From Procambarus clarkii (taxonomy: Eukaryota > Arthropoda > Malacostraca > Decapoda > Cambaridae): a stretch of DNA of 64,000 nt. Numbering within the stretch: position 1 is the stretch's first letter; each line of letters opens with the position of its first letter. The DNA lies in contig NC_091209.1 of NCBI RefSeq assembly GCF_040958095.1, positions 11,100,895 to 11,164,894 of the forward strand. The letters run 5' to 3'. Under the pieces are notes generated by a model. The model was not told the origin of the DNA, searched no databases, and saw only the letters and a list, made by a program, of their open reading frames with translations. Position numbers and translations under genes: made by a program. This document shows, one piece after another, positions 17,476 through 63,297 of the stretch.

Positions 17476-17639
17476 GAGACCTTTTAGAACAGTGCTCCAA
17501 ATTTAGCTAGATCATTTGCTTGTAAGACGGGAATTGATTACTATCTCTTGAGTGCCTCTGAACAGCTTGTGAGCAGCAATATTCCGATTAAATAAAGAAA
17601 ATTTGTTGATACACTATCATCATCAAAGTGTTTGAATTG

Positions 17640-17870
17640 ATTTGATTTGATAATTAAGATTGTAGTGAAGTCGTCAGCGAAGATGATAGCTGTTGATGGA
17701 TGGCACTATTAAAATAGTTTAAAAAAAGTTATAATAAGTTTTCATTCTATGTCAACTAATGATTTAAACAACTATTCTACAGTGCATCCTGTTAAAGGTT
17801 AGCACTTCGTAGAAATCTTGGTGCTTCTCAGTAAATTATAATAAGCACTATAAATTATAGATCATTATTA
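17640..17870. repeat. Arm of a 13-kb-spaced inverted duplication
   Basis: The segment around 'GTGCATCCTGTTAAAGGTTA' and 'GTCAGCGAAGATG' is the reverse complement of 30790-31030 with moderate divergence. This shows that the duplicated cluster extends left to at least here. Confidence 0.7.
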
Positions 17871-17989
17871 AATTTCATATAATAATGATGCTTTCGCTAA
17901 ACAACATTATATACAATACAAAACATCCACTAGACAGTGTGATATTGTAATTGCCAGAATTAGGCTGAGATATCGATATCTATGGCAGG

Positions 17990-18240
17990 TGGCTGCAGGT
18001 AATGAATCCTTAATGGTGAACATTCCGATTAGATAAAGGTTGTGCCAATTGTAAACTATGTCAACAAGAGCTGGAACACTCTCCATCACTATATCTGTGA
18101 GTGCTCTGTTATAAGTGACTTCTCACCAAATGGTATGAGGTACTTTGAGCTCTGTAATTATTTCATACACTCTGGAATATTGGAAGATATTCTTATGCTG
18201 TACCCAGATTTTGCTAATGAGGGCTAATAGATCAGTCTTA
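17990..18240 (+). mobile_element. LINE 3'-terminal coding fragment
   Basis: Frame 18042-18227 reads L-H-H-Y-I-C-E-C, then Y-F-E-L-C-N-Y-F and L-Y-P-D-F-A before a stop. This is the C-terminal tail typical of RNase H-bearing arthropod LINEs, where HxxxxC follows the RT/RNase H region. It is 5'-truncated. Confidence 0.6.
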
Positions 18241-18284
18241 CATATCTCTCTGTTCTCACCTTAGTCAGTTTTTTTTATACAAGA

Positions 18285-18535
18285 GTTGTTACATTCTTGT
18301 ACAGCCACTAGTACGCGTAGCAATTCGGGCAAGTCCTTAATCCTATGGTCCCTGGAATACGACCCCCACGAAGAATGGTTTAACAACCACGTACCCATTT
18401 TACAGTTGGGTTAAACAGAGGCTACAGTTAAGGATTTGCACCCAGTAAATCCTCCCCGGCCAGGATACGAACCCAGGACAAAGCGTTCGTATCCTGGCGT
18501 CTTACCACTACGCCACGGAGACTGGTGACAGTTGA
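18285..18535 (-). mobile_element. tRNA-related SINE-like repeat
   Basis: The left end 'TTACATTCTTGTACAGCCAC' and the body 'AACAACCACGTACCCATTTT' are followed by 'CAGTAAATCCTCCCCGGCC'. The minus strand ends in a tRNA-like head 'GGCGTAGTGGTAAGACG' with B box 'GGTTCGTATCC'. Related pieces occur at 11485-11655 and 32335-32405. Confidence 0.65.
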
Positions 18536-18889
18536 TGTATTTTTGTATTGAGGCAGGCATTTTCTCCCCCTGATTCCATGTATGACTAACCATCTTGTGA
18601 GAGGGGAATATTAGATGAACTTATAGGTAGTTCTTGATCTACACTGTGTAATATCTCATATAGAAGAGGGTAGCAGCACATTGCTGTGTAGACCTAATTT
18701 TCCTAATAAAAAAATACAATAGTGTAAGCTTTGAAAATCTTAAGAGAAATATTCTAAGAATAAATCTTAGATTTGTAGGAACGTCAACAGAAAACGATGT
18801 GGCGTTGGAATGTCTATGGGGTACACTTCAGCAAACAGGATTGACACGGACGACAACAAGTCACACGATGTTAGGTGGTCCACTACCAC

Positions 18890-19372
18890 CCCAAAAGGAT
18901 AGGTATGGGGTCCACTGCCACCTGTTGGATGGGTATTGGGTCCACTACCACCTGTTAAATGGGTATGGGATCCACTACTGTCCATAGGCAGTAGTGGGGT
19001 ACGGGGTTCACTACCGCCACTGGATGGTTATGGGGCTCACTACCATCCACTGGATGGGTATGGGGGTCCACTACTACCCATAAGATGGGTATGGGGTTCA
19101 CTACCGCCAATAGGATGTGTATATGGTTCACTACCGCCCACAGGATGGATATGGGGTCCACTACCGTCCACAGGGTGGGTATGGGGTTCACTACCCCTTG
19201 TAGGATGTTAATGGGGGGTTTACTACCAACTGTTGGATGAGTATGGGGTCCACTACCCCCTACAGAATGGGTATGGGGACCATTACCGTCCACAGGATGG
19301 GTATGGGGTCCACTACCACCCGTAGAATGGCTATAGGGTCCACTACCACCTGTAGGATGTTAAATAATCCCC
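18890..19372. repeat. Minisatellite derived from a retroelement tail
   Basis: About 12 imperfect units of about 37 bp with 'GGATGGGTATGGGGTCCACT' and 'ACCACC' cores. The unit matches part of a dispersed 3'-end repeat ('ACCGCCCACAAGATGGGTAT') present once each at about 20400, 26780 and 63320. Confidence 0.85.
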
Positions 19373-19560
19373 ATACACATCGAGTGACTAGTTGTGGACC
19401 CTATATCCATCCTGAGGATACACTGGCAGTGTTGAAGGCAGCAATGTTCAGTGTACAGGTTCCCAAGTAGGAAGACTTGAGAGGCAAGACCGACGAGAGG
19501 CATCAACATCAGAGGCTGGTGTCACGTGACAGACTTGACGTGGTGAGAGGCAATGTTGTG

Positions 19561-19690
19561 TTATGTTATCTCATCGTTGTAGATGTTCTTTACTACCCCG
19601 AGACTGTCTTTGTTGCCTTCCTTACTGTCTGGCTGTGGTCGTCTGAGATGGAGGTTATTTATAAGTTGATAAATCTCAAGGTAAACATTC
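19561..19690 (-). other. Conserved exon-like block, copy 1
   Basis: On the minus strand a CTCAG acceptor near 19648 precedes a frame with E-G-N-K-D-S-L-G-V-V and K-N-I-Y-N-D-E-I, which closes with a stop. It aligns with four other blocks at 22852, 29587, 34612 and 37201. No known protein family is recognised. A TATAAATA-like stretch lies just upstream on the minus strand. Confidence 0.5.
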
Positions 19691-20282
19691 AGCTCTAACA
19701 GGCAGAGCTGAAGAGGTTGGAGCAGTAGAGGGCGTGGAGGAAGGAGCTGGGAACCGCCTGACATCCTATAAGACTCGTCTTGAGACTTATTCCTCAAGGC
19801 ACTCGAGGAGTACCTTGGGGAGACGGAGACAGGAAGAGCGAGGAAGGTGATGGAAAGTCTTGTTTTGAGGACGAGAGGAGCACCGAGGACCCATCAGGCG
19901 TAACGTGGTGATCGTCGAGGACGCCACTTGTGCAGAATAATATTCTGAACAATGTCATCCTGGACGTTAATAAATATTATAAAGTGTAAATTTTCACACT
20001 TTAATAAGTTAAAATCACTCAATTTATCATTAACGAGCAATATCTTAAGTCAATCGACTGCAAATATTTAACATCATCCAATGTTGTCAGGGATTTTGGT
20101 TGTTGTGTTTGTTAGTCTGTTATTGCATATATTGTATATTGTAGTTGTGGAGCGGCCATTAACAGTTATGGACTGACGGACGATTACTACTTCACTGCCG
20201 ATTCTACTGCAAATGTTGCTCTGTTGTACCTGTTGTTCTGTTGCAACATTTACAATAGAATGTTGTATTTGGTTTGTGAAAT

Positions 20283-20458
20283 ATGTGAAGACTTATACTG
20301 AATTTTGTAACTAGCTCATCAAGATTGTAACTTGCTTAGCTAAATGAATTGTTGGGTTCAGTCCCTGAACCCATTATGTGCCTCTGTAACTCTTTCCACC
20401 ACCGCTCCCAAGATGGGTATGGGGTGCATAATAAATGAACTAAACTAAACTGAAATAG
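20283..20458 (+). mobile_element. Retroelement 3'-tail insertion in unit A
   Basis: This stretch is absent from the corresponding place in the inverted copy (between about 32120 and 32150). It contains 'CCCATTATGTGCCTCTGTAA', 'AAGATGGGTATGGGGTGCAT' and ends with AATAAA. The same tail recurs inverted at 26752-26850 and 63298-63395. Confidence 0.65.
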
Positions 20459-20589
20459 ATTTTGAAATTAACAACTTCAAACATTTAAGCTGGGGATCAT
20501 TATTGGTTAATTAGAGACTCGTTCGTATTTGGGGAAGTGAAGGAGTGGCTGTTGGCCAGTGATAATTGACACTTCAGACGCGCAAAATG

Positions 20590-20695
20590 TTAACCAATGG
20601 GGTGAGTTTTAGGGTGAATGCCAACCAATCAGCGGCCGGGTTTGGTTGGCTGCTGGTTATAAAAGAGACGATGAGACAAAACTCACTTCAGTGTG
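20590..20695 (+). promoter_or_regulatory. TATA/CCAAT core promoter A
   Basis: Two CCAAT boxes (about 20593 and 20624) precede TATAAAAG at 20658-20665 and an arthropod-type initiator TCAGT with A+1 at 20690, exactly 32 bp from the TATA box. The arrangement is a textbook pol II core promoter. The same elements at the same spacing are conserved in the inverted copy at 31900-32010. It would drive transcription rightward, toward the exon-like block at 22852. The transcript product is unknown. Confidence 0.65.
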
Positions 20696-20794
20696 GTTTT
20701 ACCTCACTTTTGGTGACCAGTTCCAGGTTCGTCTCTTGTAGTTTGGCTGTGTGTGGCGGGTCCCTTCCTTCCTTGCTCCCTCCCTCTGCTTCCT

Positions 20795-20842
20795 TGTTGC
20801 GTCCCTCCCTCCCTCCCTCCCTCCCTCCCTCCCTCCCTCTCC
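20795..20842 (+). repeat. (TCCC)n tract with TTGTTGCGTCCC unit
   Basis: A single 'CCTTGTTGCGTCCC' followed by TCCC repeats about 100 bp downstream of the predicted start site. The corresponding tract is expanded to several hundred bp at 31370-31830 (inverted) and 32465-32810. Confidence 0.8.
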
Positions 20843-22851
20843 TCCCTTGTAAAAATGTATAAATTCTAAGCTATATTAAGTTAACGACTACTTTAACTCG
20901 GCAACCTAGAGATGTAATTCTAGCAATGGGTGAAGTGAATTTTTTTTAAGCCATGAACTAGGTTCTGTTAATCTTCAGGATGTCCATCCATGGTATTTGG
21001 TTTTTTTATAACCATAGACGTTAATTATGTAACTTCCTGTCTAATATATATATTGTAAAATTGCCTTATAGAAGCATTTCAGTTGATTGTATAATTCCAG
21101 ACTTGAGTGTATTATGTAAATAGTTGTAATGTAAGAAGTTAGGGGAATACTTGGTCCTGACCATTGTACCTAAACGATAGTTAACTACAGGATCGTAGTG
21201 GTGCAGTTGTCAGCGCCTCGGAGGTCTACACAAGGCTGTAACAAGCCGGACAAACGGCAAGCAAGTCAGATGTTTCTCTTGGACACTTCCCAACAGTGGA
21301 TTACTTTAGCAGTTCAGAAAGTTTACTAATATACAATACAGCCATACACGTTTACTGTATGTTACTTAGGCCAATCTTGACACTTATTGTGGTAAATGAA
21401 GACAGTTGATTACTTTTAACAGCTTAACTAAATTGCTTAGCAGTCACTGTTGCTACAAAGGTGTTGCATTATTCGGTCTTCTAGTTTTTTTCTTTAACCC
21501 CTCCTTCCCCCCCAAAAAAAAAACTTTCAGCCTGATTCGAAAGTTGTCTACAAATATTTAATTATCCATAACCCTAGCTTAAAGGATTAACCAATGGTTT
21601 GAGTATCCTGGAAAGTAGTAACTTAACAGATAATTACACAAGTTAAATTAGTGATTACAAAGATAGCATTTTTCAATACAATTTGTACCTTGCCTTATTA
21701 ACCATATTCTTGCAGGAGGGTTAAGTGTAAATGGGCTAGTCTTAAATTGGCATTACTTTTCAGAATCCAGAATGCTTCTACTTAAAATACTGGTGTGGGA
21801 GTGTAGTCTCGGGACTACAATGCCCCAGACGGGTCCCTGGTGGTGGTGGTCTTCACGTCTCCTGAGTAAAACCAGTTGTCTGCACCAGTATTCGTCCCTT
21901 CCCAGAAGTCCTCCTCCAGGGAAAGTCTCTACAGTTCTCCCAAGACACTAAAGTTTCAAACTAGTTTTAGTCCTGTATTACGTCCAACAGTTGTCTTAAA
22001 GCGGCACTCTTGTTCTTCCAACACCTTCCTGCACTGGAAGTGCCCCAGCTTCCCTTCGCCCCTCACCCCCAGCTTGTCTCCCGGCCTTAAAGGCCGCAGG
22101 GAACTACACACTCCATCCTGTGGAATACCTGGCTAGTAAAATATTCTGGTTTTGATTTGGTTACTTTCTCTAAATCGCATAGATCAAGAGTAATGTGCTT
22201 AGAGTACCAAAGATACAGGTTTGACGCCTCAACATGGCTCTTGTTGTGCCCCTTTGAGTAAATTTAGATTAAATTTTAAACTGTTTCAGATGCATGAAAC
22301 AACGGCTGGTAAGAACTTGTGCGTAAATACTGATACCTACAGCTGGGATCAAGTTAACTCTTACTGCTAGTCTTGGCAGAGGGTTCCAGCTAATTATCAA
22401 GGATAAGGAAGCCTTCAGTCAGTCAGAAGTGAGTTTACTTGTTAATGTTTAACATGATCATAAATTATTGAAATGTGCATTAAACAGTCATCCTGCTGGA
22501 CTAATTTACTTAACGACCAAGAATTGTTGTAACACGACGTAATATTGTGATCCAGTTAATGTGGAGAAGCGACTATGAGGGCGGGGCGAGGGCCTGGAGG
22601 TGGTCATCCGGGTACACTGTCCTGCACCAACTGGTCTCACTGGAGGGTCTGTATGGCTTGTTTGACTTTATTAATTGGTCATTACAGCTCAAACTGTCAT
22701 GACATACTTGGTGTTTGGTAGGTTTAAGTGCAGGTTACTCATAAGGGGATCAACGGGTGTAAAGAGGTCCGTGAAAGGTAATATTAACTTAAAGATGTCT
22801 TGAGTCTTATCATAAGGAATATAATAGTTGTGATGTTACTCCCGTCCTCAG

Positions 22852-23014
22852 GCTCGGGTGACAACAGGGAAGGCCAAGAGGACCGTCTCGGGCTACTGAA
22901 GAACATCTATAACGAAGGCATAAAGTGGCAGGACATTGCCAGCATGTCAGTCCGTCGTCTGTGGGACCAGCCTGATACATATTTTTGCCAGAAAATGGCC
23001 TCGTTCGTTGAAAG
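22852..23014 (+). other. Conserved exon-like block, copy 2
   Basis: Acceptor 'CCCGTCCTCAG' ends at 22851 and a usable donor GTTAAG lies at 23015. One frame is open across the block: G-D-N-R-E-G-Q-E-D-R-L, then L-K-N-I-Y-N-E-G-I-K-W-Q-D-I, continuing to V-E-R-L-S. A second frame (V-T-T-G-K-A-K-R-T-V-S-G-Y then stop) is also conserved in copy 4. Which frame, if either, is translated cannot be decided. It is the longest intact copy of the five. Confidence 0.5.
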
Positions 23015-23474
23015 GTTAAGTTGTAAAATATTAAAATTTATTATAGCACATAATTTTCTTGAATACCTTAACCAGGTTTTTTATAGTTTGTCTACACAAC
23101 TTGCCACCAAAATACCTTGAGTGAAGTTAGGGTAATTTTTAGTTTTAGGAAAATATATAAATCCTTAACTCGTTGGTTAAAGAAATTATTAATGGCTTGA
23201 CTTGTCCCAAGACATTAGAACTAATGTACATATGGTGATTCACACAAAGTACCTCCCTTTCCACAAGACCGGAGTGTAGGCGGGTTACTTGTAAAACCTG
23301 GTTGTGGCACTATTTTGGGCCTCGTTCTCGGTGACCTCGCGAGGTATTTACGATGGACTTTTGTCCTGTCAGTGAGAGTATCTGGAAGGAACTTTGTTTT
23401 GCACGAGATAACAAATGTTAAAGTAACGAAAGTATATCCCTCTGAAGTTTCTATGAAATTTGTACAATCGGGTC

Positions 23475-25750
23475 TGGGAGTCGTCGTCAGTCCCTGAAGA
23501 CTGGCTCGATGCTGTTCTCCCTGTTCGGAAACCAGGGTCTCTAGGGTCATCCCCCAAGAACTTCCGCCCTATTGCCCTCACGAGTTGTCTGAAAGCTCTT
23601 TTGAACGTATGGTCAACGTTCGTTTGATGTGGTTCTTAGAACACCATCACCACCACCTTCCCTTTTCAATTTGGTTTTCGCAAGTGCCGCAGCACAACAG
23701 ATGTCCTGGTGAACTTGGAGGCCTATATTCGTACTGCTTTTGCTGCCGTCCTTTTTGACCTGGAAAAGGCTTACGACACTACCTGGCGGCATCATATTCA
23801 GTCTCGACTTCATTCTTTTGGCCTTCGTGGGAACCTCCCTCTCTTCCTCCGGAGCTTCCTCTCTCGTCGTTCCTTTCGTGTGCGGCTTGGTACTGCTCTC
23901 TGCCCCTTTTCAGCAGTATGAGGGTGTACCCCAGGGTAGTGTTCTGAGCACTACTTTTTCTAGTTGCCCTCAACGGTCTTCTTTCCTCTTTTCCTTCTGG
24001 CGTCTTCTCTGCTCTCTATGTTGATGATCTTACCCTTTGCTGTCGGTGATAATTCCCCTCTCCTTCAACGGCGGCTTCAACTTGAGATTGATGCCATGTC
24101 GTCTTGGGCTACCGATCATGGCTTAAAGTTCTCTGCGTCTAAGACTTGTGCTATGACTTTTACTCGGAAGCATGTCGTTCTTCGTCCCTCTTTGTCGCTT
24201 TATAGTCATCCCATTGTGTACAGGGATTCCGCGAAGCTTTTGGGGTTAGTCTTTGACACTAGTTTGTCTTGGTCACCCCATATCTCTTACCTGAGTTGAA
24301 TGCGCTAAGGCCCTTAACCTCCTTAAGGTTTTGTTCCATACTTCTTGGGGAGCGGATAGGCGCACGCTCCTCTATTTGCACTCCTCTCTCGTCCTATCTA
24401 AACTCGATTATGGTTGCCCTGCATACTCTTCTGCTTCTCCTTCTACTCTTCGTCGTCTTGATGCTTTGCACCATACTGGGTTGCGTCTCAGCTCTGGTGC
24501 CTTTCGTTCGACTCCCGCCCTTAGTTTATATGTTGACACTGGCTTTCTCTCTTCAGGACCGCCGTGACCGCTACTGTCTTCGCAATCTTGCGCGGTCCTT
24601 CCAACATCCTTCCTCTCGCCTCTGTCGTGCATTGACTTTGCCTCCTCCTGTGATTCCTGTTCCTCTTCATTGTCTCCCACTTTGTCCGGTTATCTCGCTT
24701 ACAGGATTCTCTTTGCTCATATTTCTTATGTTTCTCCTCGTATTGTTCCTTACCTCCGTGGAGTGTCCCCCTTTCCAATTTTTGTACGTCCTTGACTTGT
24801 ATTCCTAAAGTCTTTACCCCTCCTACAATTCTGAAAAGCCTCTTCCTTGAGTACTTTTCTTCGCACTCCCACTCTATTTCCATCTTCACCGATGGGTCTA
24901 AGTCTGCGGACGGTGTGGGCTACTGTTGTTTTTCCTGACCGTACTTATGTGTCGCCTCCCTTCGGAGGCTAGCGTCTTTACGGCGGAACTTTATGCTATT
25001 CTCTATGCTCTTCGTCTCTTGCTTTCTCATTCCTCTGTGGTTGTAGTTGACTCTCGTAGTGCCCTCATGACTCTAGGGTCCTTTAATCCTGTCCATCCGG
25101 TGGTCATCGAGATTCAACATTGGCAGTTTCTTATTTCTAGTAAATTTAAATCGGTAGAGTTTTGCTGGGTTCCCAGCCATATTGGTGTTTCTTTCAATGA
25201 GCGTGCGGATGCTGCCGCTAAGGAAGCTATCCGTTCTTGTCCTATCTCCCGTAAAGGTATTCCGACTTTTATCCTGTTATTCATTCTTGCCCGTTGGCAG
25301 GGCTGTTGGTCCTCTGTGGTTAGTAACAAGCTGCGCACTCTCAAACGTAGTGTCCCCCCGTGGCCTTCCTCCTGCCACCGTAACCGGCGGTGGGAAACTG
25401 CTTTGGCACGGCTGCGGGTTGGCCATACTCGCTTAACCCACGGTCACTTAATGGAGCGCCGCCCTCCTCCTTATTGTCCGAATTGTTGTCCCTCTTACAG
25501 TTGTGCATATCCTTGATGAATGTCCTGACTTCCAGGACGAGCGTGTGTCTTGCTTCCCGACCGTCCCTCGCGGTCACTTGTCCCTCGATAGAATTCTAGG
25601 TGAATCGGATACGTTTGATATCGTTCGCCTTATGCGTTTTTGTTCTTGTATTGGCATTCTTGGTGATATTTAGCGCCCTCTGATTATTTAGCACTTTGAT
25701 GGTGCTACATAGCCTTCCCGGTTTGGTGCCTTCTTTTGATAATTACTTAC
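23475..25750 (+). mobile_element. LINE with RT and RNase H domains, frameshifted
   Basis: A non-LTR retrotransposon, 5'-truncated, in several frames. RT landmarks are F-D-L-E-K-A-Y-D-T-T-W (about 23754), G-V-P-Q-G-S-V-L-S (about 23922) and the catalytic Y-V-D-D (about 24018). RNase H follows with F-T-D-G-S (about 24888), T-A-E-L-Y-A-I (about 24976), V-D-S-R-S-A-L (about 25047) and N-E-R-A-D (about 25197), so all four acidic residues are retained. A tail with R-L-R-V-G-H-T and H-I-L-D-E-C-P precedes the stop (about 25674), and the 3'UTR ends near GATAATTACTTAC. At least three frameshifts disable it. The corresponding site in duplicated unit C (about 34900-35100) lacks it, so it inserted after the duplication. 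It belongs to the RNase H-bearing I/Jockey-like group; the exact clade is not assigned. Confidence 0.9.
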
Positions 25751-26019
25751 TTGATAATTACCTTACCTTCTATGAAATTTATTAATGTGGAACAAGAGTG
25801 ATGCACGTATGTTGTGTTGAGCTTGTTCCATCAGTTTTAATTGTGAACTGATACTTGCATTGATGGATATACTTATTTGGTAAATTTCTACTTTACTATT
25901 TTTAAAGATGCGAGAGTCGGCCACAACCCGAGTAACGTCAACCTCGTGAATTGCAGAAGACTGTAACCTCCCTCTTGTGTGTGGCCGCCCACTGGCGGGC
26001 AGTGAGTCGCATGTCGGGA

Positions 26020-26160
26020 CGCCCTGGTGGAGTAAGAGTACGGACGCTTGGGCTGCCGCATGTTGGGACGCCCTGGTGGAGTAAGAGTACGGACGCTTGG
26101 GCTGCCGCATGTTGGGACGCCCTGGTGGAGTACGGACGCTTGGGCTGCCGCCTGAACGGG
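26020..26160 (+). repeat. 49-bp tandem triplication inside unit A
   Basis: Three near-perfect units containing 'GGGACGCCCTGGTGGAGTAA' and 'CGGACGCTTGGGCTGC'; the last lacks an 8-bp piece. Unit C has only one copy (about 35395-35440), so the expansion followed the duplication. Confidence 0.9.
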
Positions 26161-26284
26161 GAAGACTGGTGAACACTCCCGCTGATCTCCTGCGTTGGTC
26201 CATTATTATTGACCCCATTAATCCAAGCAACCTTTGTCCTCCTTCAAAGATCTCTTGTTCTACTAGTCTATCTTAGGCTAAAAG

Positions 26285-26555
26285 TTGCATTGTCCCTCTT
26301 ACAGTCGCTCATATCCTTGTTGAATGTCCTGACTTCCAGGACGAGCGTGTGTCTTGCCTTCCGACCGTCCCTCGCGGTCACTTGTCCCTCGATAGAATTC
26401 TTGGCGACTCTGATACTTTTGATATCGTTCGCCTTATGCGTTTTTGTTCTCGAATTGGCATCCTTGGTGATATTTAGCGCCCTCTGATTATCCCGCACAT
26501 TTGATGGTGCTACATAGCCTTCCCGGTTTGGTGCCTTCTATTGATAATTACTGAC
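26285..26555 (+). mobile_element. 5'-truncated 3' end of the 23.5-kb LINE family
   Basis: About 270 bp nearly identical to 25495-25750: the same H-I-L-x-E-C-P coding tail, the same stop and the same 3'UTR ending GATAATTACT. It is a dead-on-arrival insertion of the same family. Confidence 0.85.
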
Positions 26556-26586
26556 TTAAGCTAAAAGTTTTGCATCTGACATGGTT

Positions 26587-26644
26587 TAGTGTAGGAGCTG
26601 GAATTACAAATTAGAATTACTTTGTAATTCCAGCTCCTACACTA
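26587..26644. repeat. Perfect 24-bp inverted repeat (hairpin)
   Basis: Arms 26587-26610 and 26621-26644 are exact reverse complements (the arm begins TAGTGTAGGAGCTGGAATTA) around a 10-base AT-rich loop. The arm sequence recurs once more at about 26694-26707. Unit C has only a diverged single arm at about 35560. Confidence 0.95.
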
Positions 26645-26751
26645 TTAGAATTAGCTCCTACTCCAATTGGAATTAATTTGTAAATTTTGTGTAGGAGCTG
26701 GAATTACTACAAATTAGTTGATAGTCGCGTGACAAACAGGTCTGATCTTGT

Positions 26752-26850
26752 CTTATGCACCCCATACCCATCCCGTGGGCGGTGGTGGAAAGGGTTAGAG
26801 CCACATAATGGGTTCAGGGAGTGAGCCCCAGAGTTCATTTAGCCAAGTGA
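26752..26850 (-). mobile_element. Retroelement 3' tail, inverted
   Basis: The minus strand carries 'ACCGCCCACGGGATGGGTAT' and 'GGGGTGCATAA', matching the tail inside 20283-20458 and the copy at 63298-63395. Confidence 0.65.
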
Positions 26851-26989
26851 TAATCGTTTGAAGCTAACTGGACAATTGTTAATGTTACATGTACACAATT
26901 ATTTACACAAATACATGCATATAGATGATAATCTCATATCAAGTGATACAAGAGGCTCTGAAGTCGCTAGTAACACTGTAGTCTTGCTT

Positions 26990-27690
26990 TAGCCACCCAA
27001 CTGGGCGGCAACTTCAGTCATGTTCTCCACAACGGCGGCAGCTTTAATAATGTGCGCCACCCAATTGGGCGGCAGCTTCAGCAACTCAACTGGGCGGTAA
27101 CTTCAGTCATGTTCTCCACACAACAGCGGCAGCTTTAATCATGTGCGCCAGCTTCAGCCACCGAATTGGGCGGCAGCCTGGGCCACCCAATTGGGCGGCA
27201 GCCTGGGCCACCCAATTGGGCGGCAGCCTGGGCCACCCAATTGGGCGGCAACTTCAGTCATGTTCTACACACAACGGCGGGAGCTTTAATCATGTGCGCC
27301 ACCCAATTGGGCGGCAGCTTCAGCCACCCAATTGGGCGGCAGCCTTAGCCACCCAATTGGGCGGCAGCTTCAGTCATTATCTCCACAACGGTGGCAGCTT
27401 TAATCATGGGCGCCACCCAATTGGGCGGCAACTTCAGCCACCCAATTGGGCGGCAACTTCAGTCATGTTCTCCACACAACGGTGGCAGCTTTAATCATGT
27501 GCGCCACCGATGGGTGGCAGCTTGTCACGTGCGCCACCCAACTGGGCGGCAGCTTTACAGTCACGTGCGCCACCCAACTGGGCGGCAGTTTTAGTCATGC
27601 TCTCCACCCAATTGGGCGGCAGTTTTACAGTCGCCCAATTGGGCGGCAGTTTTAGCTATGTTCCCCACAACGGCGGCAGCTTTACAGTCA
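26990..27690. repeat. 0.7-kb minisatellite with CCCAATTGGG core
   Basis: About 20 units of about 27 bp built on 'GCCACCCAATTGGGCGGCAG' alternate with longer composite units carrying 'CATGTTCTCCACACAACGG' and 'GCTTTAATCATG'. Each unit contains a perfect CCCAATTGGG palindrome. The open frames here are array artefacts. Confidence 0.92.
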
Positions 27691-27719
27691 CGTGCAGGCT
27701 GCACCTACAGTGAGCACAT

Positions 27720-28250
27720 TTTGGATACTTCCCTCAGATGCCCGGCAGCACGTCATTATGGATGAAGTTCTTGGACTCCATTGATGGTGTTCTCTGAATT
27801 CAGCGATTTTTCTTCACATTCCAGTATATGACGACGCAAAGTATGCCAATAGTTCTGCTAACAGTTTTCATTTAGTCACATCTACATCAGCAGATGTTAC
27901 AAACTCCCAGAGGTACTTGTAGCAGAGCCTAAGCCTAGCAGTGGTGACATCTAGGCGTCTGCTAACCTTACTGGGTGACCCATAGACGTGCGGTACTGCC
28001 TACACAATAGAATGAGTAACTGGTGTGAATTTCACCAAGTCTAAGATTTTTATTGATGGTCCCGGAATATTACTGCCCTCAGACTGCTCTGTCCAAGATG
28101 GTAATTCTTCCTTTGAGTAAAAGATTTTTGCCCACTCAATTCTATCATGCATTTGGAAACCAATATGGGAAGTTCTTAGATGAGAACTATCTTGTGCTCC
28201 CCAATCCTCCAAAATGTACCTAAACCATACAACTTCAACATTGTAATCAT
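27720..28250 (-). mobile_element. LINE tail fragment with Cys/His motif
   Basis: Minus-strand broken frames read T-A-R-L-R-L, Y-K-Y-L-W-E-F and H-T-L-R-R-H-I-L-E-C, the zinc-knuckle-like tail seen after RNase H in arthropod LINEs. It is 5'-truncated and decayed. Confidence 0.55.
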
Positions 28251-28859
28251 TGCTTTCATATGGTTATATTTAACGTAGATTTTACTACATTTCACCTTTC
28301 ATTAATCTTCAAATTATGCTACAATGTACCTGTTGATAACAAGTACATTAAAGTAAAATTCGAGGGTTAACACTAATTTTGCTAGAAATTACCTATTTAA
28401 AATTATATCTTAGATTAAGGACCTGCCCGAAACTCCGGGTTATTGGCTTTACAAGTTAAATCATCAGTGCTACATACTCAGACGCAATGTACCTTCATAT
28501 ATATAGAAGACCAAGTGATGACGGGCAAGGCATAGTTTTAAATTTAGATTTTGCCCCGAGGGGCGAGTTTATTGGGCAGCGCCACTCATCCTGTGAGTGA
28601 ACACACCGCCATAGCAACATGTACAATACTCCCCAATAGGAAGAAAACCCGCTGGATTTATCCTGTCACTTGTACCCAGACACAGCTGGGAGTTAACAGC
28701 CACGTGAACAGCTTCTCAAAACTAGAAGATTAACATTGTCAACCCTTAAAATCTTACGTTATCGTGCGGGTGCAAAATGGTGAAAATCTCTGAAGACACT
28801 TATATTTTACTTTTTCTAGCTTAATATGGGTATTGTGCTATACATTTCTAATGACTTAA

Positions 28860-29575
28860 ATGTTCTCACACACTGGTAGTTGTCAAGGCGGTGTCCATCA
28901 CTACAGATTCTGCATCTTTGCTGCCCAACTGTTTCCATTCCGAATCTCCATGAATATTTGTATCCAAGACGGATTCTCGCTATTACTGATTCTCTCCCGC
29001 GGCGGCCGCCACTTCTTCGTCCATATTGATTGGGATTGCCAGTCGCAACCACATTGTATCAGCGTTCAGATTCACTTTTTTGTTTTATCCTTACCTCGCC
29101 AACATTGTCACTGATTTTGATTGACAATACCTCGAATTTGTAGAAGTCTTTGGTATAAAAAAAAAATCTATATGATCTTTCAGCGTCTTCAAGCAGAAGA
29201 TCTGTTGTGCATTTCCACAGATTTCAACATGGGAGGGAATCTACAGAAATTTGACGACTCTTCCTCGATTGGCTAGTACTCTCAACTCCTGATTTCAGCA
29301 GCTATTGCAAGACTTTCTGCCCGACTAAGGCTTTGTAGCGCCGTTTGGGAATCTCTGCAGATTACTGCAAATTGGCGTTTCGTTCAAGGAACCTTAACGC
29401 CATAATGGCATTTAGCTCTACTTGCGTTGAAGAGCGGAGTTCTCAATACGGGCTTTTCCTTCATTGTCCCGTTGTAAGGCATTATTCCTCAGTACAGTGT
29501 ATGCTGCACTAGCCCTGCCATTGACAGTGTTAGACGACCCATCAGTGTAGAGTGGATCCAATTCTTTCCCAACTT
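28860..29575 (-). mobile_element. LINE RNase H and tail fragment
   Basis: Minus-strand frames contain L-Y-T-D-G-S-S-N (about 29550), the first RNase H acidic block. About 500 bp later comes I-R-L-G-Y-K-Y-S-W with C-R-I-C-S-D-G-H-R-L (28880-28990). Intervening frames are broken. It is a second lineage, distinct from the 23.5-kb LINE by tail sequence. Confidence 0.65.
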
Positions 29576-29586
29576 CTTAACTTAGT

Positions 29587-29669
29587 TCATCGTTTTATTC
29601 CGTCGTCGAAGATGTTCAGTTGAGAGACAGTCCTCGATGCCTTCTCTTGTGTGGTGTAGTTGGCCGGAC
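29587..29669 (-). other. Conserved exon-like block, copy 3
   Basis: Minus strand: acceptor 'CTCGTCCTCAG' ends at 29670. The frame P-A-N-Y-T-T-Q-E-K-A-S-R-T-V-S, then L-N-I-F-D-D-G-I-K-R, stops at 29587-29589. It shares with copy 5 a 5-nt shorter centre than copies 1, 2 and 4. It lies downstream of promoter B on the same strand. Confidence 0.5.
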
Positions 29670-29789
29670 CTGAGGACGAGGGGAAGGCAACATTAGCAAT
29701 GACAGCTTTCAAGTAGTTAATATTACACTTTTTACCGTTACGTAAATGTAGTTCATTAAGCCTTCGTTAAACACTAGCAACCTTCACTA

Positions 29790-30275
29790 CCGCCCACAGG
29801 ATGGATATAGGGTGTTCACATTAGTCAATGTATGAGGTCCATTATCACCCATATGATGGGGCATTGGAGGGGTCCATTATCACCCATATGATGGGGCATT
29901 GGAGGGGTCCATTATCACCCATATGATGGGGCATTGGAGGGGTCCATTATCACCCATATGATGGGGCATTGGAGGGGTCCATTATCACCCATATGATGGG
30001 GGCATTGGGGGGGGTCCATTATCACCCATATGATGGGGCATTGGGGGGGGTCCATTATCACCCATATGATGGGGCATTGGGGGGGTCCATTATCACCCAT
30101 ATGATGGGGCATTGGGGGGGTCCATTATCACCCATATGATGGGGCATTGGGGGGGTCCATTATCACCCATATGATGGGGCATGGGGGGGGTCCATTATCA
30201 CCCACATGATGGGGCATTGGGGGGGTCCATTATCACCCATATGATGGGGCATTGAGGGAGGGGGGGTCTACTATC
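29790..30275. repeat. 34-36-bp minisatellite from retro tail
   Basis: About 13 nearly identical units containing 'TTATCACCCATATGATGGGG' and 'CATTGGGGGGGTCCA', with variable G runs. The founding unit at 29790-29820 is the tail sequence 'ACTACCGCCCACAGGATGG'. The homologous place in unit D (about 37425) has a single unit. Confidence 0.92.
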
Positions 30276-31159
30276 GCAATATAAATAGAAGTATGGACTG
30301 GAGACTGATACACAGAAGCTTAGGAGTTCATTAACAATGATGGAATATGGTAACAAGAGACTAGTCGCTAATATTAATGTGCAAATATTTAAGCTAGAAA
30401 ATTAATGATTGACAATTTATGAAACTGACATTTTAAGTGCAAAGTTTATACAGTTTTGTAAAATGGAGTCTAGGTGGTAAACTGGTAAATTTTGAAATAT
30501 TTTAAGAACCTATGCAGGTGCTTGTGAGGGTTGTTTTAATACCTGTTTAAAGGCTTAATATGAAAGGTTATATATTCCCAATTATTTGTCCATAATACCT
30601 GCCTACACCCCCCCCCCCAGCGGGCAGTTGATGCTCCATCTAATCTCTTCTCACGCATTAGCCTACAGTTTCAGTGATATTTATGAGGTATAAATATGGG
30701 ACTACTGATAACATTACTGTATAACCCATCCACCGGGCGGCAGTATATACCATTGTATATAATGTGTGGCGAACGAACCATTGTTGTAATTTATATAGTA
30801 CGCTTATTATAATTTACCGAGAAGTACCAAGATTCGTCCTAAGTGCTAACCTTTAACAGGATGCACTGTAGAATACTGGTTTAAATCATGGATTGAAACA
30901 TTAGTTGACACAATAGAGACTTATAACGTTTGTTTATTTTACTAAAATTTTTATTTTTAGTGTTTCAGTTTAGTTCATCTGTCAACAGCCATCTTCGCTG
31001 ACAACTTCACTATAATCTTAATTATTAAACCTTAAAATTACAAGCCTAAAGAGCCATAAGTGGCAGCTATGAACCATAAGCGAATTATAGACCTTAATAA
31101 ATAATAGTAATTAGAATTATTATTTAACTTTGGCCTCAAGTCAAATACATTATCGCCTG

Positions 31160-31277
31160 GGAATATTGCTGGCCCTCAGGCTGGCCCTCAGGCTGGCCCT
31201 CAGGCTGGCCCTCAGGCTGGCCCTCAGGCTGGCCCTCAGGCTGGCCCTCAGGCTGGCCCTCAGGCTGGCCCTCAGGC
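31160..31277. repeat. 12-bp tandem repeat (TGGCCCTCAGGC)n
   Basis: Nine to ten perfect 12-bp units. They encode alternating A-L-R-L in the plus frame or S-L-R-A on the minus strand, with no homology support. Confidence 0.95.
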
Positions 31278-31369
31278 AATCAGATGGTAGCCAATCATGT
31301 GCACTTAATCCAACCTGCGATTCGTCAAGGAAAATTGAAATGATAGTTTCCCCCATAAAAAGGGAGGAG

Positions 31370-31830
31370 GAGACAACAAGGGAGCACGGGGGGGGGGGGA
31401 GACGCAACAAGGGAGCACGGGGGGGGGGGGAGACGCAACAAGGGAGCACGGGGGGGGGGGGAGACGCAACAAGGGAGCACGGGGGGGGGGGGAGACGCAA
31501 CAAGGGAGCACGGGGGGGGGGGGAGACGCAACAAGGGAGCACGGGGGGGGGGGAGACGCAACAAGGGAGCACGGGGGGGGGGGGAGACGCAACAAGGGAG
31601 CACGGGGGGGGGGGAGACGCAACAAGGATGCAGGGGGGGGAGGGACGCAACAAGGGAGGGGGGGGACGCAACAAGGGAGGGGGGGGACGCAACAAGGGAG
31701 GGGGGGGACGCAACAAGGGAGGGGGGGGACGCAACAAGGGAGGGGGGGGACGCAACAAGGGAGGGGGGGGACGCAACAAGGGAGGGGGGGGGACGCAACA
31801 AGGGAGGGAGGGAGGGAGGGAGGGGGGACG
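31370..31830. repeat. G-run minisatellite, GGGAGACGCAACAAGGGAGCAC type
   Basis: About nine units with runs of 9-12 G, then about nine shorter units of 'GACGCAACAAGGGAGGGGGG', then GGGA repeats. On the minus strand this begins within about 100 bp of the start site of promoter B, so it would be early transcribed sequence. G runs of this length are strong quadruplex formers. The 258-codon and 292-codon frames across it are not genes. Confidence 0.93.
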
Positions 31831-31899
31831 GGACCCGCCACATACAGCCAAACTACAAGAGACAAACCTGGAACTGGTCACCAAAAGTGAGGTAAAACC

Positions 31900-32010
31900 A
31901 CACTGAAGTGAGTTTTGTCTCATCGTCTCTTTTATAACCAGCAGCCAACCAAACCCGGCCGCTGATTGGTTGACATTCACCCTAAAACTCACCCCATTGG
32001 TTAACATTTT
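31900..32010 (-). promoter_or_regulatory. TATA/CCAAT core promoter B
   Basis: Minus-strand TATAAAAG at 31936-31929 and initiator TCAGT with A+1 at 31904, a spacing of 32 bp identical to promoter A. CCAAT boxes are near 31968 and 31998. Flanks are almost identical to promoter A over more than 150 bp. It faces promoter A. Confidence 0.65.
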
Positions 32011-32279
32011 GCGCGTCTGAAGTGTCAATTATCACTGGCCAACAGCCACTCCTTCACTTCCCCAAATACGAACGAGTCTCTAATGAACCAATAATGATCC
32101 CCAGCTTAAATGTTTGAAGTTGTTAATTTCAAATGCTAATTCACAACCCAAATACAACATTCTATTGTAAATGTTGTAACAGAACAACAGGTACAACAGA
32201 GCAACATTTGCAGTAGAATCGGCAGTGAAGTAGTAATCGTCCGTCAGTCCAGAACTGTTAATGGCCGCTCCACAACTAA

Positions 32280-32450
32280 TTTATTTATTTATTTATTTAT
32301 ATATACAAAAAAAGTACATTGGGTTTAGGAGAGAACACAACATTGGTGTTTTTACATTCTTGTAAAGCCACTAACACGCACAGCGTTACGGGCAGGTCCT
32401 TAATCTGACAGATAATTTTAAGTAGGTAATTTCTAGGAAAATTATTTTTT
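32280..32450. mobile_element. Repeat insertion replacing the promoter of unit C
   Basis: Starts with (TTTA)n, then 'TTACATTCTTGTAAAGCCAC' and 'CACAGCGTTACGGGCAGGTC', words shared with the repeats at 15960 and 18290. It sits between unit B's promoter and the T/C-rich array of unit C, where a promoter would be expected. Confidence 0.55.
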
Positions 32451-32464
32451 TTTTAACTTTAACT

Positions 32465-32810
32465 GCCTCCCTCCCCCCTGCCCCTTGTTGCGTCCCCCTC
32501 CTCCTCCTGCCGCTTGTTGCGTCCCCTTCTTCCCTCCTCCTCCTGCCCCTTGTTGCGTCCCCTTCCTCCCTCCTCCTCCTGCCCCTTGTTGCGTCCCCCT
32601 CCTCCTCCTTCCCCTTGTTGCGTCCCCCTCCTCCTTCTGCCCCTTGTTGCGTCCCCCTCCTCCTCCTGCCCCTTGTTGCGTCCCCCTCCTCCTCCTGCCC
32701 CTTGTTGCGTCCCCCTCCTCCTCCTGCCCCTTGTTGCGTCCCCTTCCTCCCCCTGCCCCTTGTTGCCTCCCCTTCCTGCCCCTTGTTTGTCCTCCCTCCC
32801 TCCCTCCCTT
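32465..32810 (+). repeat. CCCCTTGTTGCGTCCCC minisatellite of unit C
   Basis: About 12 units of 24-30 bp containing 'CCCCTTGTTGCGTCCCCCTC', ending in TCCC repeats. It is the same unit seen once in unit A (20795) and expanded independently in unit B. Confidence 0.93.
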
Positions 32811-34194
32811 TTTAAGGTTGAACTAACATTTCAGAATTGTCTTGGGTAATCGAAGGTTGGGTTTAAAGTGCACAACGCTGCGTGTGGCACTATAGCAGAC
32901 CTCAGACTGACCTGTGACACTCCTCTACCCCACTTGTGTCACGCGAGGAAACTACATGACTAGTTCTGTTCTTGGCAGTCAATGTTACTACAAAAGTGTA
33001 GCTTTTATTTTCCACCCCCCCCCCCAAATGGTTTCAGCCTTAATTTTGGAAGTACTTTACAAACCTCTAGGTTATCTACATCCCTAGCCTAGAGGCTTAA
33101 CAAATGGTTTATCTTGGATAGTATTAACTTAACAGGTAACTACCAATTTGTTTGAAACAAATATCCTGCTTAACATTCTCGTGTAATTATTACAAAGGAA
33201 AAATTCTTCAATATTTTCTTCCTTGGCTTACCCTATTAACCATATTTTTGCACCAGGGTTAAGTCTAAATGCACTCTTTAGTTTTAAATTGATACAGTAT
33301 TAGTTTTCAGTTTCTGGTTAAAATACTAGTGTGGGTGTGTTGGGTCTCCGGGGACCAGAGACCTTGGTCTTCCTCCCGTATCCTAAACAAAACCAATTTT
33401 CGTCTTGCCTCTTCCTTCCCTAAACTTTTCCTGAAGGAAAAGTTTACAGTTCTCAAGACACTAACCGGTTTCAAACTAGTTGCTTTCCAGTTCCATATTA
33501 CGTCCAACAGTTCACTCTTCAAGCGGCACTCTTGTCCTTCCACCCCTTTCCTCCATTTCAGGTATCCCAACTTCCATTCGCCCCTCGGCCTCTACCCCAG
33601 CTTCTGTTTTAGGTTTGGCTACTCAGAACGAAATGTCTATATAGCACGGGCTATAGTGAGCCCGTAAGAATTCTGGTTTCCTCCAGCTTCCATTGGTCCC
33701 AGCTTGAGTCTCATCCTTCAAGGCCACAGCAAACTCGACACTCCATCCTGTGGAATACCTGATAACATAGTAAGAACAATGTTTTTATTTTTTTTTTTTT
33801 TTAGAGTACTGAAGATGCAAGTTAGAATCCTCAACATGGCTTATTTTGTCCCCCTTTTAGTAATTTTAGATTAATATAATTTTCAACCGTTTCAGATGCA
33901 TGAAACGAGGGCTGGTAAGAACTACCATTTCTCATGGTGCGTAAATACTAATACCTATAGCTGGGATCAAGCCAACTTACTGCTAATCTTGGCAGAGGCT
34001 TCCAGCTAGTTGATATCAAAGAGGATAAGCTTTCATAAAGAGCGTTTTTGCCATAAGTGAGTTTACTTGAGTGTTTAACATAGTTATACTTCATTGACTT
34101 AAATGTATATTAAATATAGTCTTCCTAATGGATAAAAATTTATTAAATGGCCAAGAATTTTTCTAAAACTATGTAGTATTTGTTAGGTGGAATA

Positions 34195-34318
34195 TAGTTC
34201 ACGAGAAAGTAAGTAATTATCAATAAGAAGGCACCAAACCGGGAAGGTTATGTAGCACCATCAAATGTGCGGGATAATCAGAGGGCGCTAAATATCACCA
34301 AGGTAGTTCACGTGAAAG
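34195..34318 (-). mobile_element. Short LINE tail insertion with target duplication
   Basis: About 94 bp matching the 3' end of the 23.5-kb LINE family (reverse complement) are flanked by a 15-bp direct repeat, TAGTTCACGAGAAAG at 34195-34209 and TAGTTCACGTGAAAG at 34304-34318, one mismatch. Unit A has no insertion here. A clean 5'-truncated integration. Confidence 0.85.
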
Positions 34319-34611
34319 GGACAAGGAGCGAGGCGCGACTACCTGGAGGTGGTCATCCAGGTACACTGTCCTGCACCAACTGGTCTTGCACTAGATCGTC
34401 CGTATGGCTTGTTTGACTTTATTTTGTCATTACAGCCCAAGTTGTCATACGGGTGTTTGGTAGATTTTTTAAGTGCAGGTTACTCGTAAGGCTTAAACGG
34501 TTGTAAAGACAAACATCTGTAGACAAAGATTAACTCATCACAAGATTCCCTATATTATATTCCTTAAAATGATCAGGTCTTAAATATTAACTCTCCCCCT
34601 CCCGTCCCCAG

Positions 34612-34742
34612 GCTCGGGTGACAATAGGGAAGGCCAAGAGGACCGTCTCGAGGTACTGAAGAACATCTATAACGATGGCATAAAGTGGCACGACATTGCC
34701 TGTCACCACGTAAAGTCTGTCATTAGTGACACAAACTTTTGA
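34612..34742 (+). other. Conserved exon-like block, copy 4
   Basis: Acceptor 'CCCGTCCCCAG' ends at 34611. The frame G-D-N-R-E-G-Q-E-D-R-L-E-V-L-K-N-I-Y-N-D-G-I-K-W-H-D-I diverges from copy 2 after about 30 codons and stops near 34740. The alternative frame V-T-I-G-K-A-K-R-T-V-S-R-Y-stop is also conserved. Confidence 0.5.
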
Positions 34743-34889
34743 TATTTTTTGTTAATGGCCTAGTTTCCTGAAGTAAAATAAAATTTAAACTAGCTCAATC
34801 TTCTTAAATACTTTAGCCAGAAGTTTTCTTAATGCTTTGTTTCTATACAACTTGCCACTTAAGGACATGAAATGTTGTTAAGGTTCTCC

Positions 34890-35000
34890 TGCCCCCTCCT
34901 CAAATTTAAACATTAATTTTTTAATTTAAAAATGTGAACTTTAATCTTAAATTTAAGAATCTTTAAATTTAAAATTTAAAGATTGTATTAAATTTTCACA
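34890..35000. repeat. AT-rich foldback
   Basis: AAATTTAAA-type sequence whose flanks AAAATGTGAA (about 34928) and TTCACATTTT (about 34996) are inverted, giving a long AT-rich hairpin. A G run (35016-35032) follows. Confidence 0.6.
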
Positions 35001-36129
35001 TTTTAGGAAGATAGTGGGGGGAGGGGGGGGGGGTAAGAGCAGGAAAGAATTTTTGCATGAAATTCTAGCAAGACTTAACAATTATATTTTTAACTTAAGA
35101 AGGATGTATTCATAAATTAGTAAAATTTTTGGAACAAAGAACTAGTGATGCATGCATGTTCTGTGTTGAGCTTGTTCCATCTCTAGGTTTTAATTATGTG
35201 AACAGATTTTTATTAGTAATGGATATCCTTGGTTGATCCTTTTTTCTTGGTTGAAGGTGAATTTTTATTTTAATTAAAAATGAAGATAGTGTCTGCCACA
35301 AATGGTGTGGCAACACAAGTAACGTCGTCCTTGTGAATTTTAAGATTAATGAAACCTTGCTCGCTTTTGTGTCGCCACCTGCTAAGGGCAGTGACTCTAA
35401 TTACGAGACACCCTAGAGTAAGAGTACGGATGCTTGGGCTGTCATCTAAATGGGCAAGTAGTTTTGTGAACACTCCTGCTGGTATCTTGTTCCTTTATTG
35501 CCGTTTCTTGCTCCACTACTCTTGAGCTATAAGTTTTTCATCCGAGGATGACGTGGTTTCGTGTAAGAGCTAAGAACTACAGTAACGGTACCATTGATCT
35601 CCCGGAAGAAAGCTGTCAATGTATCTACCACTTAATATTGGGTTTGTACATTTAAAATTTTATCTTGGATAAATAAGGCACTAGCACACTAAAATTTAAC
35701 TTATTAGTGGTTATTCAAAACTATTCTTATTGATGACATTTACTGTACTCGTGTATCCCTCTGGATTTCTGTATGAAAGAATAGAAAAATTCTGAAAAAA
35801 CAAAATTCAAAGTGTTTACATCTACAAATTAGTTGATAGTCATGTGGCTCTCAAACCTGAGAATTAACAGGTGATCTTGTCCTCCCGACTTTAGTATTTT
35901 ATATAGACTTAAAGGTCCAATGTAATGTATAAAGGGGCAACTGCTTGAAGAGAGACTTCACCCCTTAGGGTTTAAATATGTGGAACTGCCTACCTGCAAA
36001 AGCTGTTGGCATAGTATAAATTATGTTTATTATACAAATAATTGGGAAGAGGAACAATAAGTTGCCTCATCAAGGACAGGCAACTAGTACGGTGTGAAGG
36101 TAATCCTAACTTAAATACATGGATTTACC

Positions 36130-36300
36130 ATTCCTAATCCATCCACCGGGGGGGGAGGGGGGAGGGATAAGGATTTGGGATGGGACGGGGGAAAGGAATG
36201 GTGCCCAATCACTTGGATGATTGGGGATTGAACGCCAAACAGCACGAAGCGAGTCGCTCTACCATCCAGCTCAAGTGGTTGGGCGAGCCACATATTTTAA
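36130..36300 (-). mobile_element. tRNA-related SINE
   Basis: A G-rich start, 'GGATAAGGATTTGGGATGGG', then 'GGGGATTGAACGCC' and a tRNA-like head at the right. Same family as 48255-48385 and part of 13435-13705. Confidence 0.6.
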
Positions 36301-36490
36301 AGATTTGTCAGTGTCGGTAGTTAACAGATGGAATGCATTAGGCAGTGATGTAGAGGAGGAATACACAATTTGAAGTGTAGATACAATAGAGCCTAATATG
36401 CTTAAGAATCTGTACACTAGTTGATTGACAGTTGAGAGGCAAGACCAAAGAGCCAAAGCTCAACCTCTGCAAGAACAACTAGGCCAGTAC
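36290..36490 (+). mobile_element. LINE 3' end fragment
   Basis: Matches the tail of the element at 62270-62850: a 'GTTAACAGATGGAATGCATT'-type RT C-terminus, then 'TTGAGAGGCAAGACCAAAGA' and 'GCTCAACC'. It has no coding capacity. Confidence 0.65.
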
Positions 36491-37199
36491 ACAATCCTGA
36501 GGGTGATCTGCGTACCTACAGAACAGGTCCTGTGGAACACTCGTGCACCTTCCCATATCTCCAGAACACCAAGTATTTAACCAGGCCAGTTCAATGTAAT
36601 TACAGTATGGTATAAATGGAAACTAAGCCTCTGCAGGTCAGCCTCCAGTTTCTCTGCAGACCTGTGCCATCTCTTTCTTTGTTTGCCTACTTGGAGAGCT
36701 AATAGGTGGTTTTATAGCTCCTTTCTGAAAGTTCATAAGACTAGGTTAACACTATAGTAGGGCTGCCCTACCAAGGGAGCACACACTTCATATTGTGAAA
36801 TCTTGCGAATGGTTAACCAAGCATACTTACTTACCCATAATGTCTATGCATTTAGTAATGCCACTGAAGCAAGATGCGAGGAAGGTGTTGTATAGAGAGG
36901 GGAGGGGTCAGTCAGTTTAGTTTGGAACTAAATTCTGGGGCCTATAAACACCAAACTATACCCAATCATCCAGGTGGTGGGTTCAGGATAACAGCAGCAT
37001 CTAACAGCCTAGTCAGAGACCGGGCCACGAGAACATTGTGCCCAGCAGTTCAAATCATGTTTAATCAAATGAGGAAGATAGGATAAAATGCCAGTGTTTG
37101 AGGTAGCATTTTAGTTTTGAAATTTAAAGTTTGAGTCAAGAATCGGCACAAGATGTCATCAGAAAGCGAGCTCTTAGATCAGAAGACCAAGTATCGACG

Positions 37200-37850
37200 G
37201 GCAGGGCATCGTTTTATTCTGTCATTGTAGATATTCAGTACAGAGACTGTCCTCGTTGCCTTCTTTTGTCTGGCTGTAGTTGGCTGGACCTGGGGATGAG
37301 AGGAAGTTAACATTAGGAATGTCAGGTTAAAAGCAGTTAATATTGCACAATCTTTTTTTTTTTACCATTATGTCATTATGTAAATGCAGTTCATTAAATC
37401 TTCATTAGATACTAGCAACCTTCACTACCACCCAAAGGATGGATAGAGGGTGCACAACTAGTCACTGTGTATGGGGGTCCACCACCGCAATATAAACAAT
37501 AAGAACAAACAAGTATGGACTGGAGATGCAGATGTACTTAAAGCTTTAGAGTTCATAGATGTTTTATCTACACTGCATAATCTTTCATATAGAATAGGGT
37601 AGCAGCACGTTGCTGTGTATACCTAAGCTTGTTAATAATAATAGTAATAATAATAATAATAATAATAAGTTCATTAACAATGCTGGAATATTGTAACAAG
37701 ACACACAATAGTTGCTATTTAGGTGAGAAAATTAATGATTGATAATTAACAAAGTTATCAATTTATGAAACAGATTTAACAAATTTTTAAGTGCAAGGTT
37801 GTAACAAATTGGTAAATCGCAAATATTTTAAGCTAAGAATTGACGTGCGT
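37200..37850 (-). repeat. Segmental duplication unit D
   Basis: Direct copy of 29587-30480: exon-like block, 'GTTAATATTGCAC', 'ACTAGCAACCTTCACTACC', 'AAGTATGGACTGGAGA' and 'GAAAATTAATGATTGA' follow in the same order. It lacks the minisatellite expansion and carries a TAATAA repeat at about 37637-37668. Confidence 0.75.
37201..37289 (-). other. Conserved exon-like block, copy 5
   Basis: Minus strand: acceptor 'CTCATCCCCAG' ends at 37290. It shares the 5-nt shorter centre with copy 3. The frame ending V-L-N-I-Y-N-D-R-I-K-R-C is open back to the acceptor. Confidence 0.5.
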
Positions 37851-63190: not shown

Positions 63191-63297
63191 ATCATTATTT
63201 TTTCCACGTGTGGTAAAGTCAATAATATGCTTAAGCTGTGATCTTGTTAAAATCAGCTGTGAAGGGTTAATGAAAAATGAATCATCGGAGTAGTTTT

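Follow-up and report, generated by a model that had tools for sequence, protein, structure and literature searches.

What is the block of sequence that recurs five times, in both orientations, along 20 kb of contig NC_091209.1 of the decapod Procambarus clarkii, and how did it come to be repeated? The blocks (B1 to B5) lie in a window of 64,000 nucleotides (nt), by which we mean the whole stretch of DNA analysed (C60:11100895-11164894, where C60 is this contig), within a genome of 4.03 Gb. Coordinates given without a contig are window positions. A first-pass annotation, made from the sequence alone, had described the blocks as exon-like units and recognised no known family. A family can now be named. 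The blocks are very probably decayed last exons of the C-type lectin domain (CTLD; Pfam PF00059, Lectin_C) of a QPD-type lectin gene, copied around the genome partly after the death of the gene.

Identity of the five blocks

Mutual alignment of all five blocks confirms that they are related and lie where they had been placed, with limits at 19642-19509 (B1, minus strand), 22852-22973 (B2, plus), 29669-29588 (B3, minus), 34612-34742 (B4, plus), and 37289-37181 (B5, minus). Evidence of their identity comes from the open frame of B4, which reads DNREGQEDRLEVLKNIYNDGIKWHDIACHHVKSVISDTNF. This piece matched the CTLD of L-selectin (E 0.0053) and SP-D (E 1.8), the sole PDB sequences retrieved up to E 10. 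L-selectin (PDB 3cfw, 5vc1) is thus the nearest solved sequence, albeit from a distant vertebrate protein and in a comparison that covers the C-terminal third of the domain only. Within the genome, the 51-residue B4 piece has at least 152 matches at E≤10 (best 150 of 247 candidates scored), and open copies elsewhere read QPDNREGNEDCLGVLKNIYNDGIKWHDIACHHVKAVVCETSL or nearly so.

One of the open relatives, locus L069 on contig C61, connects the blocks to a complete domain. Its exon is 71% identical to the B4 piece over 48 columns. When its exons 1-3 are joined and translated, they match Lectin_C with 62.7 bits (Pfam cut-off 22.6). In PDB they match 88 sequences at E≤0.01, of which the 60 listed are, judging by their names, all CTLD proteins. 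By eye, the translation contains the motifs SYC, EDC, IAC, VCE, QPD, and KWHD, i.e., the four CTLD cysteines together with QPD and a WND-type motif, and the last exon of the open relative carries QPD, EDC, KWHD..C, and VCE. In this locus, a promoter-like element comes first; a signal-peptide-like start and a P/Q-rich stretch come next, and the three CTLD exons follow, with the signal peptide and the splice phases judged by eye from the sequence alone.

A search of the genome with the Lectin_C profile gave at least 81 matches at E≤0.001 (best 150 of 339 candidates scored). The 12 open-type loci examined are 11 distinct ones, because L014 and L069 hold one gene, and all 11 have three complete open exons. 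Large groups of open-type lectins occur at 22.4-33.4 Mb of C38 and 13.9-16.3 Mb of C79, where many open-frame last-exon and exon 1 matches are spaced by tens to hundreds of kb. On C56, the matches listed for lectin groups at 14.40-14.53 and 20.39-20.51 Mb form mirror images, with the same scores in reversed orientation; either an inverted duplication of large size or an effect of the assembly would explain this.

The features by which the blocks had been recognised hold to different degrees. A pyrimidine-tract acceptor precedes four of them (AG at 22851, 34611, 29670, and 37290), whereas B1 has the CTCAG but a weak tract. The E-D-x-L region and the N-I-Y-N-D-G-I-K core are present but vary (K-D-S-L in B1, N-I-F-D-D in B3). 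The proposed separation of copies 1, 2, and 4 from copies 3 and 5 stands for the second group: B3 and B5 lack 5 nt that B1, B2, and B4 carry in the block alignment, which breaks their reading frame, and they are joined in a tree of 33 rows (100/99). The other three blocks do not form a single clade. B2 and B4 are 94% identical over 102 nt, and for that reason their likeness is not due to chance. Repeats in both orientations were also described correctly, since there are inverted arms, 91-97% complementary (see below), and a direct pair (21525-23107 and 33032-34858) that is 67-74% alike. The annotation was therefore right about exon-like blocks, a gene family, its turnover, and a distinct B3/B5 type.

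The long frame of B2 gave two sub-threshold Pfam matches, both outside the lectin core. A tblastn search of B4 against phages returned one chance match (E 0.6), and tblastn with the open reading frames (ORFs) of the first eight relative loci gave matches that, among those listed, all lie outside the five blocks.

Decay of the window copies

Every block has lost CTLD cysteines or is disrupted by a stop or a frame break. We classify the window blocks as C-type lectin pseudogenes; as far as can be read from its sequence, no window copy could yield an entire folded domain. Relics of CTLD exons 1, 2, and 3 survive in order in the B2 and B4 units; for B1, B3, and B5 the last exon alone was found. 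In the B2 unit, on the plus strand, the relic of the 5' part of the gene (21525-22131, 67-83% identical to 33032-33761) includes a counterpart of the P/Q-rich exon, recognised by position only. It is followed by exon 1 (22290-22434), with a 12-nt deletion and a stop, by exon 2 (22550-22646), and by B2 itself, where EDC has become EDR and a deletion follows KWQDIA. The B4 unit, on the same strand, consists of a 5' part (33012-33765), exon 1 with a frame break (33896-34023), exon 2 (34326-34400), and B4, which is open to its stop codon and in which EDC has become EDR and VIC/VVC has become VIS. B1, in the outer part of the left arm, has kept QPD, lost a cysteine, and acquired two in-frame stops. 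B3 and B5, relics of the second type, carry the 5-nt deletion; EDC is kept in B3.

The other exons are dispersed as well. A genome search with exon 1 gave at least 135 matches (best 150 of 185 candidates scored) and returned both window exon 1 relics. Our survey of the three exons covered the window and 35 of 86 loci, the others being for the most part overlapping sequence from places already covered, or else flanks, arms, more C64/C54 copies, or the first Lectin_C loci. All 23 dispersed loci are disrupted by a stop or a frame break, or lack part of an exon. In the cohort of B2 copies, variable sites fall 4/3/4 by codon position (8 rows including window B2, 81 nt), compared with 8/3/23 in open genes (9 rows, 90 nt). 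Hence, the B2 cohort, to which the test was confined, has no third-position bias, which in this small sample indicates relaxed constraint. One dead copy (L054, 1934-2113, minus strand) contains part of CTLD exon 2, TSGNERGTTTWWWS or a close variant, four times at 46-bp steps, so that this piece of exon has become a minisatellite.

Inverted arms and a promoter-like element

Two inverted arms, at 20142-20850 and 31734-32278, are 91-97% complementary to each other. The outer part of the left arm (20142-20283, plus strand) is 97% complementary to 32137-32278. Further in, at 20451-20850 on the same strand, lies an element that we call P, with TATAAAAG at 20658 and TCAGT at 20688; a TCCC minisatellite comes after it. 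The right arm (31734-32278, minus strand) carries P in inverted form, with its TATA at 31929 and TCAGT at 31902. P resembles a promoter of the TATA/initiator kind and points inward from both arms. A dispersed short repeat at 20284-20450, seen also at 26753-26847 and 63296-63388, lies inside the left arm and is missing from the right one.

Using 20455-20770 as a query, we found P in at least 40 places (best 40 of 200 candidates scored), the other 39 being 88-98% alike to it. Fourteen of 19 P rows keep both TATAAAAG and TCAGT, 30 nt apart; the remaining five, namely the two C26 arms and three old copies, lack TATAAAAG. A search for NF-kB-like sites with one crude pattern found none in 18 of the 19 rows. 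Sixteen of the 40 places form eight inward pairs, 11.35-15.53 kb apart and distributed over four contigs: five pairs on C60 (including the window) and one each on C51, C7, and C26. One further pair, on C20, points outward. Among the matches listed, at least 27 of the 40 places have a lectin exon match within 25 kb. A B1-type exon lies outside P in the left arm of the window, the right arm of the 10.76 unit, the left arms of the 14.07 and 16.5 units, the 11.45 unit, C51 (in part), and the right arm of C26. It is not in the right arm of the window, the left arms of the 10.76 unit and of C26, nor in the C7 arms examined.

Block copying and probable exchange between arms

Last-exon copies were found on at least 21 contigs (best 40 scored). 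For the first-pass annotation, membership of a known transposable element present in thousands of copies would have told against its reading. What we count instead is at least dozens to about 150 lectin exon copies, and no transposase was found in the 17 ORFs scanned, a subset of all ORFs. The B2 cohort is spread over two contigs and has inactivating changes in common: at the third CTLD cysteine, seven of the eight rows have R and the other has S, and the deletion after KWxDIA is present in six, the remaining two alignments ending at that point. Because these changes are common to its members, the cohort multiplied after the gene had died, and its copying was thus not selected for the lectin.

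Copying in blocks is visible along C60. The region at 10.76 Mb of this contig is collinear with window positions 17414-28195, in inverted orientation and with gaps. Its arm with the dead B1 is 97% identical to that of the window, and the part with the B2 gene 89%. The dead-B1 arm is thus as conserved as P (97%), which exchange and recent copying fit better than selection on the promoter alone. Between the two C26 arms, 907 nt are 95% alike, and the window B1 is sister (99/100) to the B1-type exon of the C26 right arm; the B1 part thus travelled with the arm. A B3/B5-type exon was seen opposite a B2-type gene in the window and in C7. The lectin-bearing interiors of C7 and the window are only about 70% alike, whereas P is 92% alike.

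In five units, both arms allowed comparison of left and right P. The two are 98.6% alike in C7, 98.2% in C60:14.07, 96.2% in C26, 97.8% in 10.76, and 97.5% in the window. From one of these units to another, P is 89.1-94.9% alike, the exception being the window against 10.76 (97.4-97.8%). The excess of likeness within a unit thus holds in three of the five. In C7, the core of P is nearly identical in both arms and the flanks differ more. Other observations point away from exchange between arms: the left arm of 14.07 is 100% like a single arm at C60:13.9, and so closer to it than to its own partner, and the C26 arms are 95.3-95.4% like a 131-nt piece on C78. On balance, the inverted arms seem to exchange sequence, probably by gene conversion.

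The following history would account for these data. The gene, to judge by an open relative, would have had a TATA/initiator promoter-like element ahead of a signal-peptide-like start with a P/Q-rich stretch, and then three exons forming one carbohydrate-recognition domain. Copies of it decayed, as their homology, exon order, and disabling changes show, and the DNA of the B2 cohort was copied after inactivation. Blocks were duplicated along C60 and onto other contigs, related blocks being present on C51, C7, and C26. The route that we favour is ectopic recombination between repeats; we infer both this route and the order of the events.

Alternative explanations

Several results weigh against decayed lectin exons. 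Pfam run on the single window relics gave no Lectin_C match, and B1, B2, and a profile of five rows matched nothing in PDB. The codon-position test is small, covering 81 and 90 nt. The last exon of B4 remains open. Finally, the last exons of B2 and B4 are 94% alike, compared with about 70% for the introns, and both have EDR, which is unexpected if they have evolved neutrally since a shared dead ancestor. Either local gene conversion or a constraint that outlived the cysteine would explain this likeness, and we cannot choose between them. One could also see in it, and in the open last-exon frames, the sign that B2 and B4 are still live genes, encoding altered lectins or short lectin-like proteins. 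Yet exon 1 has stops or frame breaks in both units, cysteines are lost, and the B2 cohort lacks third-position bias, which makes living genes most improbable.

The paired arms raise other explanations for the spread of the decayed exons. Foldback-type DNA transposons have long inverted arms with internal tandem repeats, and the unit could be a self-spreading foldback-like element of 11-16 kb, whose promoter-bearing arms and minisatellites would be long terminal inverted repeats and whose immune lectin genes would be captured cargo, multiplied after death. The eight inward pairs, the last-exon copies on many contigs, and the likeness of the arms within C7 and C26 agree with this. Unlike in such transposons, no transposase was found among the 17 ORFs scanned and no element end was recognised: neither a common outer end nor a target-site duplication of the unit could be recognised in the C7, C26, and C60 arms examined, homology extends past P in several copies while the sequence outside the arms differs, and the interiors of C7 and the window have diverged far more than P. 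A mobile element is therefore unlikely in our view. The conservation of P could instead mean that it still drives RNAs from the dead genes, as long non-coding RNAs or as convergent and inverted RNAs yielding small RNAs against live lectins. The TATA/initiator pair spaced by some 30 nt in most P rows, the likeness of P across its copies, and the two P elements that face each other are in keeping with this. However, the pair is missing in five rows, including both arms of C26, the dead-B1 arm at 10.76 Mb is as conserved as P, which indicates exchange and not selection on P, and Rfam (gathering threshold) and tRNA scans gave no match; we regard continued transcription as very unlikely. Decayed lectin exons carried along by block copying thus remain the reading that we prefer.

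Nested inserts and other repeats

Two inserts interrupt the cluster. A 2.3-kb fragment resembling a retrotransposon without long terminal repeats (23462-25767, plus strand; Pfam RNase_H 28.7 bits, cut-off 25.8) lies between exact 13-nt duplications, TTCTATGAAATTT. It is missing in six of the seven C60 and C51 copies compared (five on C60, one on C51), and the seventh, L020, stops short. An insert of about 1 kb (28541-29587, minus strand) interrupts B3 and could be recognised because B5 is uninterrupted; it is flanked by a 10-nt duplication that agrees at 9 of 10 positions, and its likeness to retrotransposon RNase H was seen by eye only. On its other side, B3 adjoins a 35-bp minisatellite (29766-30330, minus strand).

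Other repeats lie around these elements. The sequence at 17640-17920 was tried as a unit end and rejected, being a dispersed repeat (at least 400 first-look candidates, of which 40 were scored). It forms an inverted pair with 30787-31029, and this repeat has many copies on C50. A tandem array at 8150-9330 has a unit of 18-19 bp (37-bp period) in about 60 copies, with a G+C content above that of its surroundings. A perfect 12-bp tandem repeat, GCTGGCCCTCAG, occupies 31168-31277 in 9.2 copies and adjoins G-rich minisatellites.

Relation to known systems and significance

The expansion of crustacean C-type lectins by duplication is already known, including in P. clarkii (PMC9638144). According to that paper, PcLec-EPS and PcLec-QPS are crustacean C-type lectins of this species, and two duplicates differ mainly in exon 3. 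They are similar to the genes studied here in having a lectin domain preceded by a signal peptide and a low-complexity stretch, in being multi-exonic, and in occurring as duplicates. They differ in carrying EPS/QPS motifs in three exons, and the window copies are broken. The sea urchin Sp185/333 genes (PMC5103432) are reportedly also clustered immune genes with short tandem repeats and segmental duplications, but they belong to another gene family and another animal, and we liken them by description, not by sequence. We found no report of an arm-bounded lectin unit of this kind in the open-access literature, as far as its text was accessible, which is no proof of absence.

The gene family is thus a known one and its decay is ordinary; the interesting part is the dispersal. 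An exon that had gone unrecognised can now be named as part of a lectin of the innate-immunity type. Broken lectin DNA beside promoter-bearing inverted arms kept being copied, near clustered open lectin genes, and copy number in such families is therefore not necessarily a sign of selection for the protein. Should the arms turn out to bound a mobile element, they would provide a vehicle for the spread, expansion, and turnover of immune genes.

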